A DNA stretch of 64,000 bases, taken from assembly GCA_003697135.1 (NCBI GenBank), contig RFGC01000035.1, forward strand, positions 62,001 through 126,000, in the 5' to 3' direction. Origin of the DNA: Acidobacteriota bacterium. Lineage in GTDB: Bacteria; Acidobacteriota; Blastocatellia; Pyrinomonadales; Pyrinomonadaceae. This document shows, piece by piece, positions 1 through 7,851 of this stretch. How positions within the stretch are numbered: the stretch's first letter is position 1; every line of letters begins with the position of its first letter. The notes under the pieces are model-generated. The model did no database searches. It worked only from the letters and a program-made list of their open reading frames with translations, and was not told the DNA's origin. Position numbers and translations under genes: made by a program.

Positions 1-1
1 A

Positions 2-1849
2 GGTGCACCGGAACTTGAATCGGCTAAGCCGATTGTTCCTAAAACGATAGAATCTTACACATCGAAACTTACTTCATCAACAGGCGATATTTTTCAAAAA
101 CTTCGCCATCAAGCATGGGAAGAAATCCGTCAAGCGTCAACTTCGGATATTTTGAGATTGACACTTCCGACGGGACTGGGCAAAACTTTGATGGGATTTT
201 ATTTGAGCGGGAAAATAAACAAACAAACAGATGAAATAAACGAACAAACAGGCGAGATGAAATCCCCGACCATCTATTCCCTGCCTTACCTTTCGATAAT
301 CGAGCAGACAAGGCAGAAAGCATCTGAGATTTTTGGAGAATGCGAAGATTTTCGTTTGATAGAACACCACAGCCTTAGTTTTCCGTCAGTCTTAAGACTT
401 TCATCTTCAGACTCGGAAGAGCCGAATTTTGAAAAAGCACGCTTTGCATTAGAAGATTGGAACGCTGATTTAGTAATCACTACGTTCGATCAGCTTTTTT
501 ATTCCTTTCTCTCGCAAGAACGAGCCTTTATCCGCCGATTTGTGCGCCTTGTGGGCGCAACGCTTGTTTTAGACGAAGTTCAAACGATCCCTGCACGTCT
601 TATCCCTGCTGTGGAAACCTTTCTTCAAAACCTGAATCGAAAACTTTCAACCAAACTGGTTTACATGACTGCAACGCATCCGCCTTTTCTAAAAGGCGCA
701 AGTAGCATTGTCAAAAATGAGAGCGGTTACTTCAGCCCTTTGAATCGAACATGCCTTAAAATTCAAATAGAAAACCCCATAAGTTTTACCGAGTATCTTT
801 CAAGTCTCGGAGATTGGCTATCACGAAGGCAAGGCAAAAAGATTTTGTTCGTAGCAAACACAATCAGAAGCGCTCGCGATATTTTCTTTCATCTTAAAAC
901 ACTCAAGGAAACTAATTTTAGCAATCTTAAAATCTTTTACATTTCAGGAAGCGTCGCTCCCATAGAGCGACTCCAGCGAATCAACGAGATTAAAAATGTT
1001 GCGTCTGGAAATACTGAAGAATGGCTCATAGTGGTTTCTACACAATGCGTGGAAGCTGGAGTTGATCTAGACATGGACGAAGCTGTGCGTGATTTTGCGC
1101 CTTGGGATTCGATTCAGCAAGTCTGCGGACGCACTAACCGCTTCGGTCTCAAAAAATGCTCGGACGTATGGATTTACCGCTGGCTAGACGAACGCGAAAG
1201 AGAATTCCATAGTTACATCTACGATTCTACTTTTACGGATGCAACGCTCTGCATTCTCAAAGATCGCCCTGAAATTCCCGAAGAAGCATATTTTGAAATT
1301 CAACAAGAATACGTGAAAGAGCTTGAAAGACGCCTTTCCGACGAAGAATCGAAAAAACTCATCAAATCGGCGCTTTCATGGGAATTCGACGAATTGGATT
1401 TCCGCGTGCTTCTCCGTGGTGACAACAGAGCCTGGAAAGTTTCGGTCTTTTGCGTTATTGACGATGCATCTGAAATCCTCAAAGAGATTGTAATAGAATG
1501 TTGGTCAAGCAAACAGCCTCAAAGTGCGCTTAAACGTTTGATTAAGCTTTGTGAAGATGAAGCCATCAAACCTGCTACGGAATTCTTGCGAACTACTCCT
1601 GAAGAAATAAAGAAACATGCCGAATCCCTAGCGTCTCTATCAAATCGCCAATTATCATTTAGTCTCGCCAACTTGTTAAAACCGCTCCTTCAAGCTTACA
1701 CTATTCAAATGCCCATTCGGCGCTTGGAAGATGCGCGGTTCGGAAAATTAACAGAAGATTTTTATTATTTGCCGAAAGAAGAGTATGAAGCTGTAAACCT
1801 TTCAACAGGTGAAGGGAAGACAGAAGAGCTACCAGATTTTATAATTTGA
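2..1849 (+). CDS. cas3: CRISPR-associated helicase Cas3, 5' end outside window
   Basis: This is the DExH helicase part of Cas3, the nuclease-helicase that degrades DNA recruited by Cascade. The frame is open from the first bases of the window, so the start and the expected N-terminal HD nuclease domain lie upstream. Visible motifs are the Walker A motif TGLGKT (nt 170-187), a DEVQ motif II (nt 572-583), TAT motif III (nt 668-676), the motif V stretch CVEAGVDLD and motif VI QQVCGRTNR (nt 1115-1141). A TTG at 152 could start an ORF, but in-frame coding continues upstream of it, so it is not the start. The gene is followed after 4 bp by cas4, giving the order cas3-cas4-cas1-cas2 that is usual for type I-B. 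The subtype stays inferred because cas8, cas7 and cas5 are not visible. Confidence 0.93.
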   Translation, partial: GAPELESAKPIVPKTIESYTSKLTSSTGDIFQKLRHQAWEEIRQASTSDILRLTLPTGLGKTLMGFYLSGKINKQTDEINEQTGEMKSPTIYSLPYLSIIEQTRQKASEIFGECEDFRLIEHHSLSFPSVLRLSSSDSEEPNFEKARFALEDWNADLVITTFDQLFYSFLSQERAFIRRFVRLVGATLVLDEVQTIPARLIPAVETFLQNLNRKLSTKLVYMTATHPPFLKGASSIVKNESGYFSPLNRTCLKIQIENPISFTEYLSSLGDWLSRRQGKKILFVANTIRSARDIFFHLKTLKETNFSNLKIFYISGSVAPIERLQRINEIKNVASGNTEEWLIVVSTQCVEAGVDLDMDEAVRDFAPWDSIQQVCGRTNRFGLKKCSDVWIYRWLDEREREFHSYIYDSTFTDATLCILKDRPEIPEEAYFEIQQEYVKELERRLSDEESKKLIKSALSWEFDELDFRVLLRGDNRAWKVSVFCVIDDASEILKEIVIECWSSKQPQSALKRLIKLCEDEAIKPATEFLRTTPEEIKKHAESLASLSNRQLSFSLANLLKPLLQAYTIQMPIRRLEDARFGKLTEDFYYLPKEEYEAVNLSTGEGKTEELPDFII

Positions 1850-1853
1850 CCGT

Positions 1854-2369
1854 ATGACTGACGAAGAATTTGTTGAGCTTAAGACAAACGGCGTAAAAGT
1901 TAATTACTACGTTGTCTGTCCGCGCAAGCTGTGGCTTTACAGTCATGATATTCGCCTTGAAAAATCAAGCGAGCGCGTCGAATTGGGGAAGATGCTACAT
2001 GAACGCTCCTACAGCGAACAGCCAAGGCGAGAATTGATGATAGATAATCTCATCAGAATTGATTTGCTAGAAGGCCAAGATAAGGTTCTCGAAATCAAAT
2101 ACTCACAAAGAATGAAAGAAGCGTCACAATTACAGATTCTTTACTATCTGTATTATCTCAAGCGTTTGGGAATAACAGGTCTTACGGGCGAATTGCGCTT
2201 TCCAAAAGAGCGTCGGCGAGAGACTGTAGAATTAACAGAAGAAGCTGAAGGTAAAGTAGAAGAAGCTTTACGACAGATAAAGAAAATTGAGAAACTTCCT
2301 AAACCGCCCAACGTAGAATTTATGCCCATCTGCAAACGATGTGCATATTGCGAGTTGTGTTGGGGATAA
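1854..2369 (+). CDS. cas4: CRISPR-associated exonuclease Cas4
   Basis: This is Cas4, a RecB-like nuclease with an iron-sulfur cluster that helps Cas1-Cas2 trim prespacers and select PAMs. At 171 residues it has family size. The cluster-ligand pattern is complete: Cys22 near the N-terminus, then C160, C163, C166 and C169 at the extreme C-terminus (one more Cys than the usual three). The nuclease motifs are His49 (GKMLHE), Asp70 (RIDLL) and E80-I-K82 (LEIKYS), followed by a helix with QLQILYYLY as in RecB motif III. The ATG lies 4 bp after the cas3 stop and cas1 follows after about 30 bp, so the genes are probably cotranscribed. The function follows from the family; nothing here looks broken. 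Confidence 0.93.
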   Translation: MTDEEFVELKTNGVKVNYYVVCPRKLWLYSHDIRLEKSSERVELGKMLHERSYSEQPRRELMIDNLIRIDLLEGQDKVLEIKYSQRMKEASQLQILYYLYYLKRLGITGLTGELRFPKERRRETVELTEEAEGKVEEALRQIKKIEKLPKPPNVEFMPICKRCAYCELCWG

Positions 2370-2400: not shown

Positions 2401-3672
2401 ATGCCGCGTTCTTATTATCTTTTCAGAAATGGCCGTTTGCGTCGCAAGCATAACACGCTTTATCTTGAAACTGAACTTCTACAAGAAGAAACATCTTCAG
2501 AACCAGAAGAGCAAACTGATGAAACCGAACACCCTAATACGATTTCATTTCAGAAAGATGAAGAAAGCGCCTTCGCTTCGATTGATCCGATAGCAAACGA
2601 GACTCTTACAATCGAACAAACACTGGCGGCGGAATCAGTCGGAGATTCTGAATCTAACAATCCAAACTCTTCTGAAAGCGAATCGGATAATCTCTCAAAA
2701 ACTTTTGAAAATATCGGCGTTTCCAAATCTGATACTTCTTGCGAAAGCCCCAAAACCGCAGAAAAACCACGCCCAATCCCAATCGAAGATGTAAATGAAA
2801 TATATCTATTCGGTGAGATCACTCTCAACACGAAACTTTTGAACTTTCTAGCACAAAAAGGCATTCCCGTGCATGTATTCAATTATCATGGTTATTACAG
2901 TGGCTCATATTATCCGCGCGAGACGAATGTCTCTGGATATTTACTCGTAAAACAAGTAGAACACTACACTGAAACAGCTAAAAGACTCACGATAGCAAAA
3001 GAAATAGAGCGAGGATCTTTTCACAACCTAAATCGAAACCTGCTTTATTATCGCAACCGTGGCAAAGCCGTTCAGGACGCTATCGAGATGATGAACGAAG
3101 AAGCAAAGAAAATCGAAACTGCTGATTCAATTACAGAACTTATGGGCGTCGAAGGACGTATCCGAGAAATTTATTACAGAGCCTTCAGTGAGATATTAAA
3201 ATTAGAAGAACCCTTCAAGCGCGTCAAACGCCCACCTGATAACATGCTCAATGCTTTGATCAGCTTTTGTAATTCCTTGCTTTACTCGACCGTGCTTGCG
3301 CAAATCTATCGAACGCCACTGAATCCTACCATCAGCTTTCTTCACGAACCTAGCACTAGACGTTTCTCATTGGCCTTGGATATTGCTGAAATCTTCAAAC
3401 CACTCATCGTTGACAAAATTATTTTCAAACTTATCAATAAACAAATGCTGAACGAGAATGATTTGATGGAAGAAGTTGGGTTTGCTTACCTGAGAGAAAG
3501 CGGAAGAAAAATCGTGGTTCGCGAATTTGAAGAAAAATTGTCAACAACAATAATGCACAGACGAATGGGCAGAAACGTATCTTATCGGGGTTTTATAAGG
3601 CTTGAATGTTATAAAATAGTGCGACATCTTTTGGGAATCGAAGACTATAAAGCCTTGCGCGCATGGTGGTAG
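2401..3672 (+). CDS. cas1: CRISPR integrase Cas1 with a long acidic N-terminal insert
   Basis: This is Cas1, the metal-dependent integrase that with Cas2 inserts new spacers at the leader end of the array. It has 423 residues, against about 330 for most type I Cas1 proteins. The catalytic residues are present: E251 (GVEGR), H315 (FLHEP) and D327/E330 (DIAEIFKP). The first 25 residues (SYYLFRNGRLRRK) and residues 123 onward (IPIEDVNEIYLFGE) match the start of a normal N-terminal beta domain. Between them, residues 26-122 form a low-complexity stretch rich in Ser, Glu, Thr, Asn and Asp that breaks the domain. I start at ATG 2401 because the conserved fold begins there; an in-frame ATG at 2341 would add 20 residues lying inside cas4. 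A GGAG sits about 10 nt upstream. No frameshift is needed to read through the insert. Confidence 0.92.
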   Translation: MPRSYYLFRNGRLRRKHNTLYLETELLQEETSSEPEEQTDETEHPNTISFQKDEESAFASIDPIANETLTIEQTLAAESVGDSESNNPNSSESESDNLSKTFENIGVSKSDTSCESPKTAEKPRPIPIEDVNEIYLFGEITLNTKLLNFLAQKGIPVHVFNYHGYYSGSYYPRETNVSGYLLVKQVEHYTETAKRLTIAKEIERGSFHNLNRNLLYYRNRGKAVQDAIEMMNEEAKKIETADSITELMGVEGRIREIYYRAFSEILKLEEPFKRVKRPPDNMLNALISFCNSLLYSTVLAQIYRTPLNPTISFLHEPSTRRFSLALDIAEIFKPLIVDKIIFKLINKQMLNENDLMEEVGFAYLRESGRKIVVREFEEKLSTTIMHRRMGRNVSYRGFIRLECYKIVRHLLGIEDYKALRAWW

Positions 3673-3736: not shown

Positions 3737-4000
3737 ATGTATGTAATCGCCGTTTATGACGTCCAACAAGAAAGAGTTGACAAAGTTTGTCGGCTACTGC
3801 GCCGTTATCTAAACTGGGTTCAGAATTCAGCATTTGAAGGTGAATTAAGCAAAAGCCAACTCGAAAGCCTAAGATTCGAACTGCTCGACATTATAAATCC
3901 ACAAACAGACTCGGTTTATCTATACATACTGCGCGACGCTAAGTGGATGAGAAAAGAAATTCTCGGTCAAGAAAAAGGACTAACCGAAAACATTATCTAA
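3737..4000 (+). CDS. cas2: CRISPR-associated endoribonuclease/adaptor Cas2
   Basis: This is Cas2, the small ferredoxin-fold dimer that bridges two Cas1 dimers during spacer integration. It has 87 residues, the normal family size. The N-terminus MYVIAVYDV carries the conserved Asp8 at the end of beta strand 1, and NWVQNSAFEGELS and SVYLYILRD match later strands of the fold. It begins 64 bp after cas1 and ends directly before the leader of the array, the usual place for the last adaptation gene. An A/G-rich GAAGG lies upstream of the ATG. Confidence 0.93.
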   Translation: MYVIAVYDVQQERVDKVCRLLRRYLNWVQNSAFEGELSKSQLESLRFELLDIINPQTDSVYLYILRDAKWMRKEILGQEKGLTENII

Positions 4001-4165: not shown

Positions 4166-7100
4166 GTTTTAATCGAACCGACGTGGGATTGAAACACATC
4201 GGTTTCAATTTGTTTCACAATCTTTGCAGCTGTTTTAATCGAACCGACGTGGGATTGAAACACGAACACGTATTACGTGAGGCAGGACTTGCGCCGGTTT
4301 TAATCGAACCGACGTGGGATTGAAACATCAAATCCCATCGCAGGTCATCAATGAGGCTCAATGTTTTAATCGAACCGACGTGGGATTGAAACTATGAGTG
4401 AAAATTACACAACATACATTTACATCGCGTTTTAATCGAACCGACGTGGGATTGAAACGTAGTCGGTGGACACTCTTCTGAGATTTTGCAGGGTGTTTTA
4501 ATCGAACCGACGTGGGATTGAAACCGCGCTAGGTCTCAGCGGAGCGCTTTTGCTTGTGTTGTTTTAATCGAACCGACGTGGGATTGAAACACGTTTGTCT
4601 CTTCCATACTCTTGCCTCCGTGTCACGTGTTTTAATCGAACCGACGTGGGATTGAAACGTAGTGTTGCTGCAGCCTCCACAGCCAGCACCAGCAGTTTTA
4701 ATCGAACCGACGTGGGATTGAAACACGTAAACGGTATAGGGAGAAACTTGCCTCCGAACAGTTTTAATCGAACCGACGTGGGATTGAAACCCAGCAATGT
4801 GTTCGTGGGCGGAGCTGTGTTTCTCGGTTTTAATCGAACCGACGTGGGATTGAAACAAGAGAGCGAAGATAGTTGTGGACGAGGAATTACTCGGTTTTAA
4901 TCGAACCGACGTGGGATTGAAACGACGCGTGGTATCTGGTCGTCGGCGAGGGCGAGGATGGTTTTAATCGAACCGACGTGGGATTGAAACTTGCAATTCG
5001 AATTGATTCGAGAAGAAGACGATACTGTTTTAATCGAACCGACGTGGGATTGAAACCGTCTGGACTCTTGCTCCCCCCCAACGTGTATTCGTTTTAATCG
5101 AACCGACGTGGGATTGAAACACAGCCAGCTCCACCTACCATCACGGTACACCCGCGTTTTAATCGAACCGACGTGGGATTGAAACTCTATGTAACATTCA
5201 CACCTTCCGCCGACAAAACCCGTTTTAATCGAACCGACGTGGGATTGAAACGAGGAACAGGAAGGAGGTGAGGAGATATGAAAACGAGTTTTAATCGAAC
5301 CGACGTGGGATTGAAACATTCAAACTCATTTTTGATTCTCGAAGTCCCGATTAGTTTTAATCGAACCGACGTGGGATTGAAACCGTATTGTACGCCGTCC
5401 TTATACGCCTTTCGATACCGTTTTAATCGAACCGACGTGGGATTGAAACGTGGTATTGCTTTCACCGCCTCAGCCACCAGCGCAGTTTTAATCGAACCGA
5501 CGTGGGATTGAAACGACTCTTGCTTTTGCTGCCGAGCAAGAGCGCATGAAAGTTTTAATCGAACCGACGTGGGATTGAAACACGAACACGTATTACGTGA
5601 GGCAGGACTTGCGCCGGGTTTTAATCGAACCGACGTGGGATTGAAACGGGTCGTGCTTACTTACGTGTGGAAAACGAGGACTGGTTTTAATCGAACCGAC
5701 GTGGGATTGAAACAGCGTCATTGATCTATTCTCGCGGCTCAGAGGCATGGGTTTTAATCGAACCGACGTGGGATTGAAACCAAGAAGTCCAGAATGCAAT
5801 AGTCGTGCTAGCGATTGTTTTAATCGAACCGACGTGGGATTGAAACCTGAAACCTAGCACAAGGCGCAGACTCAGGGCTTGGGTTTTAATCGAACCGACG
5901 TGGGATTGAAACCAGGATCGCAAGCGAATATACGAGATCACAGGATTAAGTTTTAATCGAACCGACGTGGGATTGAAACATAATAGTCTGCCCCAATTCA
6001 TGATTCCTCTATGTCGTTTTAATCGAACCGACGTGGGATTGAAACGAATTAATGTCATATATGTTTACATTGCTTAATTTTCGTTTTAATCGAACCGACG
6101 TGGGATTGAAACGATACGGTTCGCTAAGTTCATACACCCCATCACTTAGGTTTTAATCGAACCGACGTGGGATTGAAACGCGGGTGGGTAGGAAGAGCTG
6201 GGCGATGATGATGAGGGTTTTAATCGAACCGACGTGGGATTGAAACAATTGCAAGCGTTGTTTTTCCACTACCCGTTTTTCCGAGTTTTAATCGAACCGA
6301 CGTGGGATTGAAACTTCTTGCTGTCACGAGCTAACAAGCCGACAAGAAAAGTTTTAATCGAACCGACGTGGGATTGAAACAGCGTGGCGGTCGATTTTGT
6401 TGAATTGACGGTGAGGGTTTTAATCGAACCGACGTGGGATTGAAACACTCCTGCGATGTGCCAGCCTCCGATGAATCCTGCGGTTTTAATCGAACCGACG
6501 TGGGATTGAAACAGAGGCGGGATTCTCTTGCAATATCTTGAGCTAAGTCGTTTTAATCGAACCGACGTGGGATTGAAACCGAGAAGGGAGATGAGAGAGC
6601 TGAGCGGTTTGTTCGGGTTTTAATCGAACCGACGTGGGATTGAAACCTATCAGGCTGAGCTTGGGCTGGCAACACAACATAGTTTTAATCGAACCGACGT
6701 GGGATTGAAACCAAGTTACAATTATACATCAGTATTTGTCATAGCAAGTTTTAATCGAACCGACGTGGGATTGAAACAGAGAGATGAAGATACAGATTGG
6801 TAACTTGTCAAAGGTTTTAATCGAACCGACGTGGGATTGAAACAAAGTCAATAATAGCTGGAGAAGGATATAAGCTAATTGTTTTAATCGAACCGACGTG
6901 GGATTGAAACCACTTGACAGGGAATTGGATTATTCTTCTGATCGTGGGTTTTAATCGAACCGACGTGGGATTGAAACAAATAACATTTGTAAATAAAGAT
7001 AATGGCAAACAAAGTTTTAATCGAACCGACGTGGGATTGAAACTATTTTTGTGGCTTCTGATAACGAAGCGCAACTGGTGTTTTAATCGAACCGACGTGG

Positions 7101-7851
7101 GATTGAAACCGTATACAATCTACAGGAGGAAATGATATGTTAAGCGTTTTAATCGAACCGACGTGGGATTGAAACAGGCTTCAGAAGACAATATCGAAAT
7201 TTCTACCTTTGAGTTTTAATCGAACCGACGTGGGATTGAAACCAGCGGTTGAGGGCACGCTGGCGGTTGGATAGACGTCAGAGTTTTAATCGAACCGACG
7301 TGGGATTGAAACTGAAACTCGTGACATATATCGTCTGGGTCGCGGCATGTTTTAATCGAACCGACGTGGGATTGAAACTGCATCTGCTTCTAATGCACTA
7401 TTCGAGTAGTAATTGGTTTTAATCGAACCGACGTGGGATTGAAACAGACATTATCGCAATCACGATATTAGCTATTTTAGCCTTGTTTTAATCGAACCGA
7501 CGTGGGATTGAAACTTTTTTATTTTCGCAACAAGACAAAGGCTAAAATAGCTAGTTTTAATCGAACCGACGTGGGATTGAAACTAACGAGCGAATCATCA
7601 ATCTGAGCGTAATACTCTCTAGTTTTAATCGAACCGACGTGGGATTGAAACGATTTTGCTCGATGGGAATCAACAGTAAAGGGATGTGTTTTAATCGAAC
7701 CGACGTGGGATTGAAACCTTCACGTCTAATTTCTCGCTCGATCTCAGCTAGTCGTTTTAATCGAACCGACGTGGGATTGAAACTTTATTCCTTCAAAAAC
7801 TATCAGTTTCATTGCTTTCTAGTTTTAATCGAACCGACGTGGGGTTAGGAT
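4166..7851 (+). CRISPR. CRISPR array, 56 repeats and 55 spacers
   Basis: The repeat is 30 nt, starting GTTTTAATCG and ending GGATTGAAAC, and is identical in every interior copy I read. By hand I count 56 copies, from 4166-4195 to 7822-7851. Spacers are 34-40 nt, mostly 36. The last repeat keeps the first 22 bases and then diverges (GTTAGGAT replaces ATTGAAAC), which marks the trailer end and places the leader beside cas2. The ATTGAAAC ending is typical of the 5' handle of type I-B and III crRNAs, so transcription is on the + strand. Notable spacers are a duplicate (4262-4296 and 5582-5617), two overlapping opposite-strand spacers (7446-7484 and 7515-7553), and two that contain a Shine-Dalgarno sequence plus ATG (5252-5287 and 7110-7145). 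Open frames inside the array are repeat artefacts. Confidence 0.99.

Follow-up and report, generated by a model that had tools for sequence, protein, structure and literature searches.

Cas1, which records new CRISPR memories, is among the most conserved of the CRISPR proteins, and it is still debated how the Cas1-Cas2 integrase avoids binding, and integrating at, unsuitable DNA. The locus described here encodes a Cas1 whose N-terminal domain is interrupted by a long acidic segment. It lies near the start of the window, by which we mean the whole 64,000-nucleotide stretch of Acidobacteriota DNA that was analysed. We asked whether this segment is real, how widely it is shared among relatives and what, if anything, it may do for the integrase.

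The Cas1 gene and its operon

The gene belongs to a complete type I-B operon in the order cas6-cas8b-cas7b-cas5b-cas3-cas4-cas1-cas2, in which all eight genes, in order, were matched by PADLOC models. The cas6, cas8b, cas7b and cas5b genes lie upstream of cas3, beyond the window, and the remaining genes occupy its first part:

1..1849, forward strand: 3' part of cas3 (the full gene is G000:C12:61321-63849 in the source genome)
1854..2369, forward strand: cas4b (PF01930, E 4.7e-53; PADLOC Cas4b)
2401..3672, forward strand, stop codon included: cas1b, the type I-B CRISPR integrase subunit (423 aa; TIGR03641, PF01867, catalytic residues)
3737..4000, forward strand: cas2b (PF09827, E 2.7e-21; PADLOC Cas2b)

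The cas1 frame (2401-3669, forward strand) is open and yields 423 residues. The start codon conserved among relatives is the ATG at 2401 and not the GTG upstream at 2341; the relatives open with M-[APS]-R-x-Y-[YF]. TIGR03641 matches residues 118-423 with 433.1 bits (E 6.8e-130), above its curated cut-off of 304.1 bits, and PF01867 matches with an E-value of 1.5e-85. E251, H315, D327 and E330 are all in place and at least 90% conserved across relatives, in agreement with the original prediction, made from the sequence, of intact catalytic residues in an open frame.

The source genome contains a second, distant Cas1 (L070, G000:C40:60274-61221), in which the Cas1 domain occupies the C-terminal half of a 610-aa ORF that may be a fusion; its loop carries no insert.

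Anatomy of the insert

The protein can be divided into three parts:

2401..2469, forward strand: N-terminal beta-hairpin of Cas1, residues 1-23, upstream of the insert (AlphaFold2 strands 3-7, 11-16 and 19-23; conserved columns G11, R15 and T19)
2476..2766, forward strand: acidic disordered insert, residues 26-122 (alignment with 22 relatives, AlphaFold2, composition tests)
2776..3669, forward strand: remaining Cas1 fold, residues 126-423, from strand 4 of the N-terminal domain onward and including the catalytic helical domain (solved matches 2yzs, 4wj0, 4xtk and 7ei1)

A long acidic, low-complexity insert inside the N-terminal domain had been predicted at residues 26-122, and the same interval was recovered exactly (2476-2766), with a net charge of -19. 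By alignment, the whole loop between beta-strands 3 and 4 spans residues 24-125 (2470-2775), so that the N-terminal domain has gained about 95 extra residues at this point. Where a Cas1b is expected to have a contiguous N-terminal beta domain with a loop of few residues, this protein has a loop of 102 residues, against 6-13 in insert-free relatives; this is variation within the Cas1b family and no ground for exclusion from it.

The AlphaFold2 model bears out the earlier view that the insert splits the N-terminal beta domain, as strands are predicted before it, residues 32-119 are disordered (pLDDT below 50) and the fold resumes after it, with most of the remaining Cas1 fold above 90. In this model, the insert is the beta3-beta4 loop of the N-terminal domain. 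Foldseek placed the model on 2yzs, 4wj0, 4xtk and 7ei1, with target-normalised TM-scores of up to 0.93. Alignments of the protein with Cas1 family models and with solved structures start mainly at about residue 107-125, the Cas1b models scoring highly from residue 107-118 onward, and the insert is not present in the Cas1b family models. A folded subdomain within the insert was rejected, given pLDDT values below 50 throughout it in both of the subclades described below, and a fused known domain was ruled out, as the insert alone matched no family in Pfam. None of the 2694 segments of 97 residues taken from the other large ORFs of the window was as hydrophobic-poor or as polar-rich as the insert, and 18 of the 2694 were as acidic.

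We infer from topology that the up-down-up meander of the first strands would bring the beta3-beta4 loop to the end of the sheet that also has the beta1-beta2 turn. This turn in Cas1b appears, on our assumption, to match the wedge residue of other Cas1 proteins (E. coli Tyr22, P. aeruginosa His25), and the loop, judging from strand topology only, would lie close to the DNA channel. At the ends of this channel, the wedge residue separates the strands of the prespacer duplex (PMC10011333; PMC12259127).

Distribution among relatives

The same-class survey covered 162 Blastocatellia genomes, 14 of which had a Cas1b-like match at E<=1e-50. Thirteen of these Cas1b proteins can be read over the N-terminus, and all 13 have an insert at the position seen in the window. 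The remaining match, in genome G042, is a chimeric ORF with a Cas1 part only from about residue 198, and Cas1 fragments cut by contig ends in two genomes (G097 and G107) both contain the insert. The whole loop measures 49-122 residues in these 15 Blastocatellia proteins (13 full-length and 2 fragments) and 6-13 residues in seven Acidobacteriota outside Blastocatellia and one Calditrichia genome. The insert has been kept without loss in every sampled Blastocatellia Cas1b, at core identities down to 44-50%. In the other Cas1 types and families of the Blastocatellia genomes, their longer ORFs included, the loop is of the ordinary short kind, and so it is in the close solved Cas1b structures.

The chimeric ORF of G042 (L060, G042:C586; minus strand, 498 aa) joins to Cas1, in frame, an N-terminal part which we recognised by eye and take to be gamma-glutamyltranspeptidase-like; it is most likely the product of a chimeric contig.

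The insert is thus a lineage trait of Blastocatellia Cas1b and not a one-off, and the check in close relatives proposed with the original prediction gave this answer, as most of them do have it. The accompanying remark that no standard Cas1 is known to have such an insert agrees with the Cas1b models, the close solved structures and the open-access literature, where we found no description of one and where absence is weak evidence; within Blastocatellia, every Cas1b readable over this region has one. The insert-bearing Cas1b is a real lineage-wide variant, neither a new family nor a new system.

Among viral contigs we found one distant Cas1 match, and a scan of genome contigs, with patterns that fell partly within the insert, gave two loci. 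Of the 31 best records in the plasmid collection, 30 aligned with an insert-free query from residue 1-4 and over some 330 codons; many of these records are haloarchaeal and therefore not independent. The exception is Salinibacter ruber pSR66 (L077, NZ_CP030366.1), which has a similar acidic insert at the same position: read from stop to stop, its Cas1b ORF runs MKRPYYLFSNGRLCRKQNTLCLE, then 115 residues (net charge -11, 10% hydrophobic), then PVENAESIYCFGE. The annotated start of the RefSeq protein WP_240333799.1 (locus position 1429) lies inside the acidic insert, near its end, and the true ORF continues upstream in frame to MKRPYYLF, so that the record omits most of the insert along with the N-terminal hairpin. 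Automatic start-site choice can strip such inserts from protein records in this way, and their frequency is therefore likely to be underestimated.

On the Arcobacter cloacae plasmid pACLO (L079), a gene for a Bro-N domain protein is annotated between cas4 and cas1b (locus 457-1353).

Constraint on charge and sequence

Phylogenetic analysis resolved two well-supported Blastocatellia subclades, A, which contains the Cas1b of the window, and B. The two group together, at 82/87 support, in the smaller tree only; in the larger tree, insert-free Bacillota sequences from plasmid records fall near both. AU tests do not reject a single clade (p 0.37 for A and B, 0.24 with Salinibacter included). A common origin of clades A and B is plausible, not firm, and an independent origin of the Salinibacter insert is also plausible.

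In the five pairs for which dS could be estimated for both insert and core, dN/dS was 0.36-0.72 in the insert and 0.04-0.06 in the core, and the insert alignment contains many gap columns. All 15 Blastocatellia inserts nevertheless carry a net charge of -7 to -19, with an acidic content of 20-29%, whereas a base-composition null (random codons, 4000 simulations per insert) gave mean charges of +4 to +11 and produced no, or almost no, sequence as negative as that observed (P<0.001 per insert). Clade B does not show the clear hydrophobic depletion seen in most of clade A, which leaves charge as the feature common to both clades. There is therefore little constraint on the sequence of the insert and strong constraint on its negative charge.

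The charge of the insert is similar in size and opposite in sign to that of the Cas1 core, and roughly offsets it. We rejected the notion of a more basic core in insert-bearing proteins, as their cores (+9 to +20) show no compensating change relative to those of insert-free relatives (+9 to +16). A co-evolving basic partner was likewise rejected, since the charges and lengths of Cas4 and Cas2 are unshifted at insert-bearing loci.

Clade B has one conserved element. The motif D-x-[ML]-G-[EDQ]-L occurs in all seven clade B inserts (L061-L067), about 28-37 residues ahead of strand 4, and in none of the eight clade A inserts, that of the window included. In the clade B alignment, the D, G and L of the motif are invariant, the other invariant columns being at the start of the next strand, and outside the motif the inserts are only 34-42% identical between close pairs. 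Shuffled inserts carry the motif with a probability of 0.0003-0.001 each, figures made optimistic by shared ancestry. The model of L067, a clade B protein, shows the motif as unstructured and outside the predicted Cas1 fold. This pattern of conservation hints at a partner-binding short linear motif in clade B.

Possible roles of the insert

Our preferred explanation, held tentatively and by analogy with other DNA-binding proteins, is that the insert is an acidic electrostatic screen on the DNA-binding surface of Cas1, acting as a selectivity brake. The negative chain would make weak, reversible contacts with this basic surface and compete with non-specific DNA, so that Cas1-Cas2 would not be trapped on chromosomal DNA, its presumed decoy; only good substrates, namely Cas4-processed prespacers and the leader-repeat, would displace the arm. 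In clade B, the arm seems to have also acquired a short linear motif that a partner would bind. When an acidic disordered region transiently covers a DNA-binding face, trapping on decoys is reduced and target association can be faster, an effect established experimentally for the HMGB1 acidic tail and for engineered homeodomains (PMC10250230).

The position of the insert, its disorder, its negative charge, its free sequence and the basic DNA-binding enzyme that it is attached to are what an electrostatic tether needs, and the acidic 115-aa insert at the same position in the pSR66 Cas1b points the same way, although the Salinibacter proteome is acidic in general, which weakens this parallel. 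Against a screen, the insert lacks the long D/E runs of the HMGB1 model, and the core of insert-bearing proteins is no more basic than that of insert-free relatives; moreover, the charge might persist for no other reason than that a basic or hydrophobic loop would do harm. A putative role in DNA mimicry would be compatible with the charge data. A broader version of the screen, in which a lineage-wide electrostatic selectivity module of the Cas1 integrase would screen the prespacer and target surface, be displaced only by proper substrates, have arisen more than once (in Blastocatellia and in Salinibacter) and be partly hidden in databases by downstream start calls, seems to us rather doubtful as a whole.

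It is also possible, and we give this nearly the same weight as the electrostatic screen, that one or a few expansions of a surface loop in the lineage are merely tolerated, with selection removing only those variants that bind DNA, aggregate or misfold, so that an acidic polar chain without a job is left behind. The high dN/dS and the turnover in length from 49 to 122 residues are what such a spacer would show, clade A has no conserved sequence, ordinary Cas1b has at this site a surface loop whose length varies (5-14 aa), and Cas4 and Cas2 are unchanged. A neutral expansion sits less easily with the retention of the insert in every sampled Blastocatellia Cas1b, with no loss even at the lowest core identities, while no such loop occurs in the other Cas1 families of these genomes, with the conserved motif of clade B and with the lack of a comparable segment in the other proteins of the window. 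The original prediction had offered neutral expansion as an option, and half of it stands: the sequence is nearly free to drift, whereas the negative charge is kept far beyond what base composition would give.

Ranked third, and on the whole unlikely, is a partner-binding arm, in which short linear motifs in the insert would dock Cas4, Cas3, Cas2 or a host repair or nucleoid factor at the integrase. The case is strongest for clade B, where the motif stands out from a diverged background, is rare in shuffled inserts and does not lie within the predicted Cas1 fold, and a contact between Cas4 and Cas1 is known from the Cas4-Cas1-Cas2 complex (PMC6519985). It is weakened by the absence of the motif from clade A, by the common ancestry of clade B, which inflates the shuffle statistic, and by Cas4 and Cas2 proteins that show neither an extra domain nor a basic shift at insert-bearing loci. 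Binding to Cas4 or Cas2, as first proposed, thus drew no support from charge covariation, and the conserved short motif is confined to one subclade.

An assembly error, frameshift or read-through fusing unrelated sequence to Cas1, the artefact against which resequencing had been suggested and which would account for an insert without a database match, has a negligible probability and was excluded, since the frame is open, at least 13 other Blastocatellia genomes, assembled independently, have an insert at this position and the conserved start is common to core and insert.

Comparison with known systems

In fold, catalytic residues and operon order (cas4-cas1-cas2), this protein is like standard type I-B Cas1 (TIGR03641; 2yzs from Aquifex aeolicus, 4xtk from Thermotoga maritima, 4wj0 from Pyrococcus horikoshii and 7ei1, the Pyrococcus furiosus Cas1-Cas2), and outside the insert it shares 37-52% identity with insert-free Cas1b of other groups. 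It differs in its beta3-beta4 loop, which has a few residues in the standard proteins and here is about 95 residues longer and acidic. Large extra sequence on the N-terminal side is also found in Cas4-Cas1 fusions (type I-G, 7mi4) and in RT-Cas1 and Cas6-RT-Cas1 fusions (7kft), but there folded domains stand ahead of the Cas1 N-terminus, whereas here disordered sequence lies within the N-terminal domain. Like acidic autoinhibitory regions such as the HMGB1 acidic tail and D/E repeats (PMC10250230), the insert is disordered, strongly negative and joined to a basic protein that binds DNA; unlike them, it is a mixture of S, T, N, D and E and not D/E runs, an internal loop and not a tail, and bacterial, and it is known here from sequence and predicted structure.

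With a natural acidic arm that can be deleted, neutralised or transplanted to an insert-free Cas1b, one could ask directly whether the specificity of acquisition is tuned by charge screening. We consider the case to be of moderate interest, on account of the clear charge constraint, the simplicity of the experiments and at least one example hidden by start-site choice.

The CRISPR array

Downstream of cas2b, the window contains:

4166..7851, forward strand: CRISPR array of 55 exact repeats GTTTTAATCGAACCGACGTGGGATTGAAAC and a degenerate last repeat (5 mismatches), 56 in all

The 55 spacers all differ from one another and are mostly 36-37 nt long. With as many as 3 mismatches allowed, the sequence common to spacers 2 (4262-4296) and 22 (5582-5617) is found at no other site in the source genome, and an exact search of the viral contigs with its 27-nt centre gave no match. 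These spacers agree over 35 nt, and one of them has a further G at the 3' end, which fits either one protospacer acquired twice with a 1-nt slip at one end or a copy with an indel.
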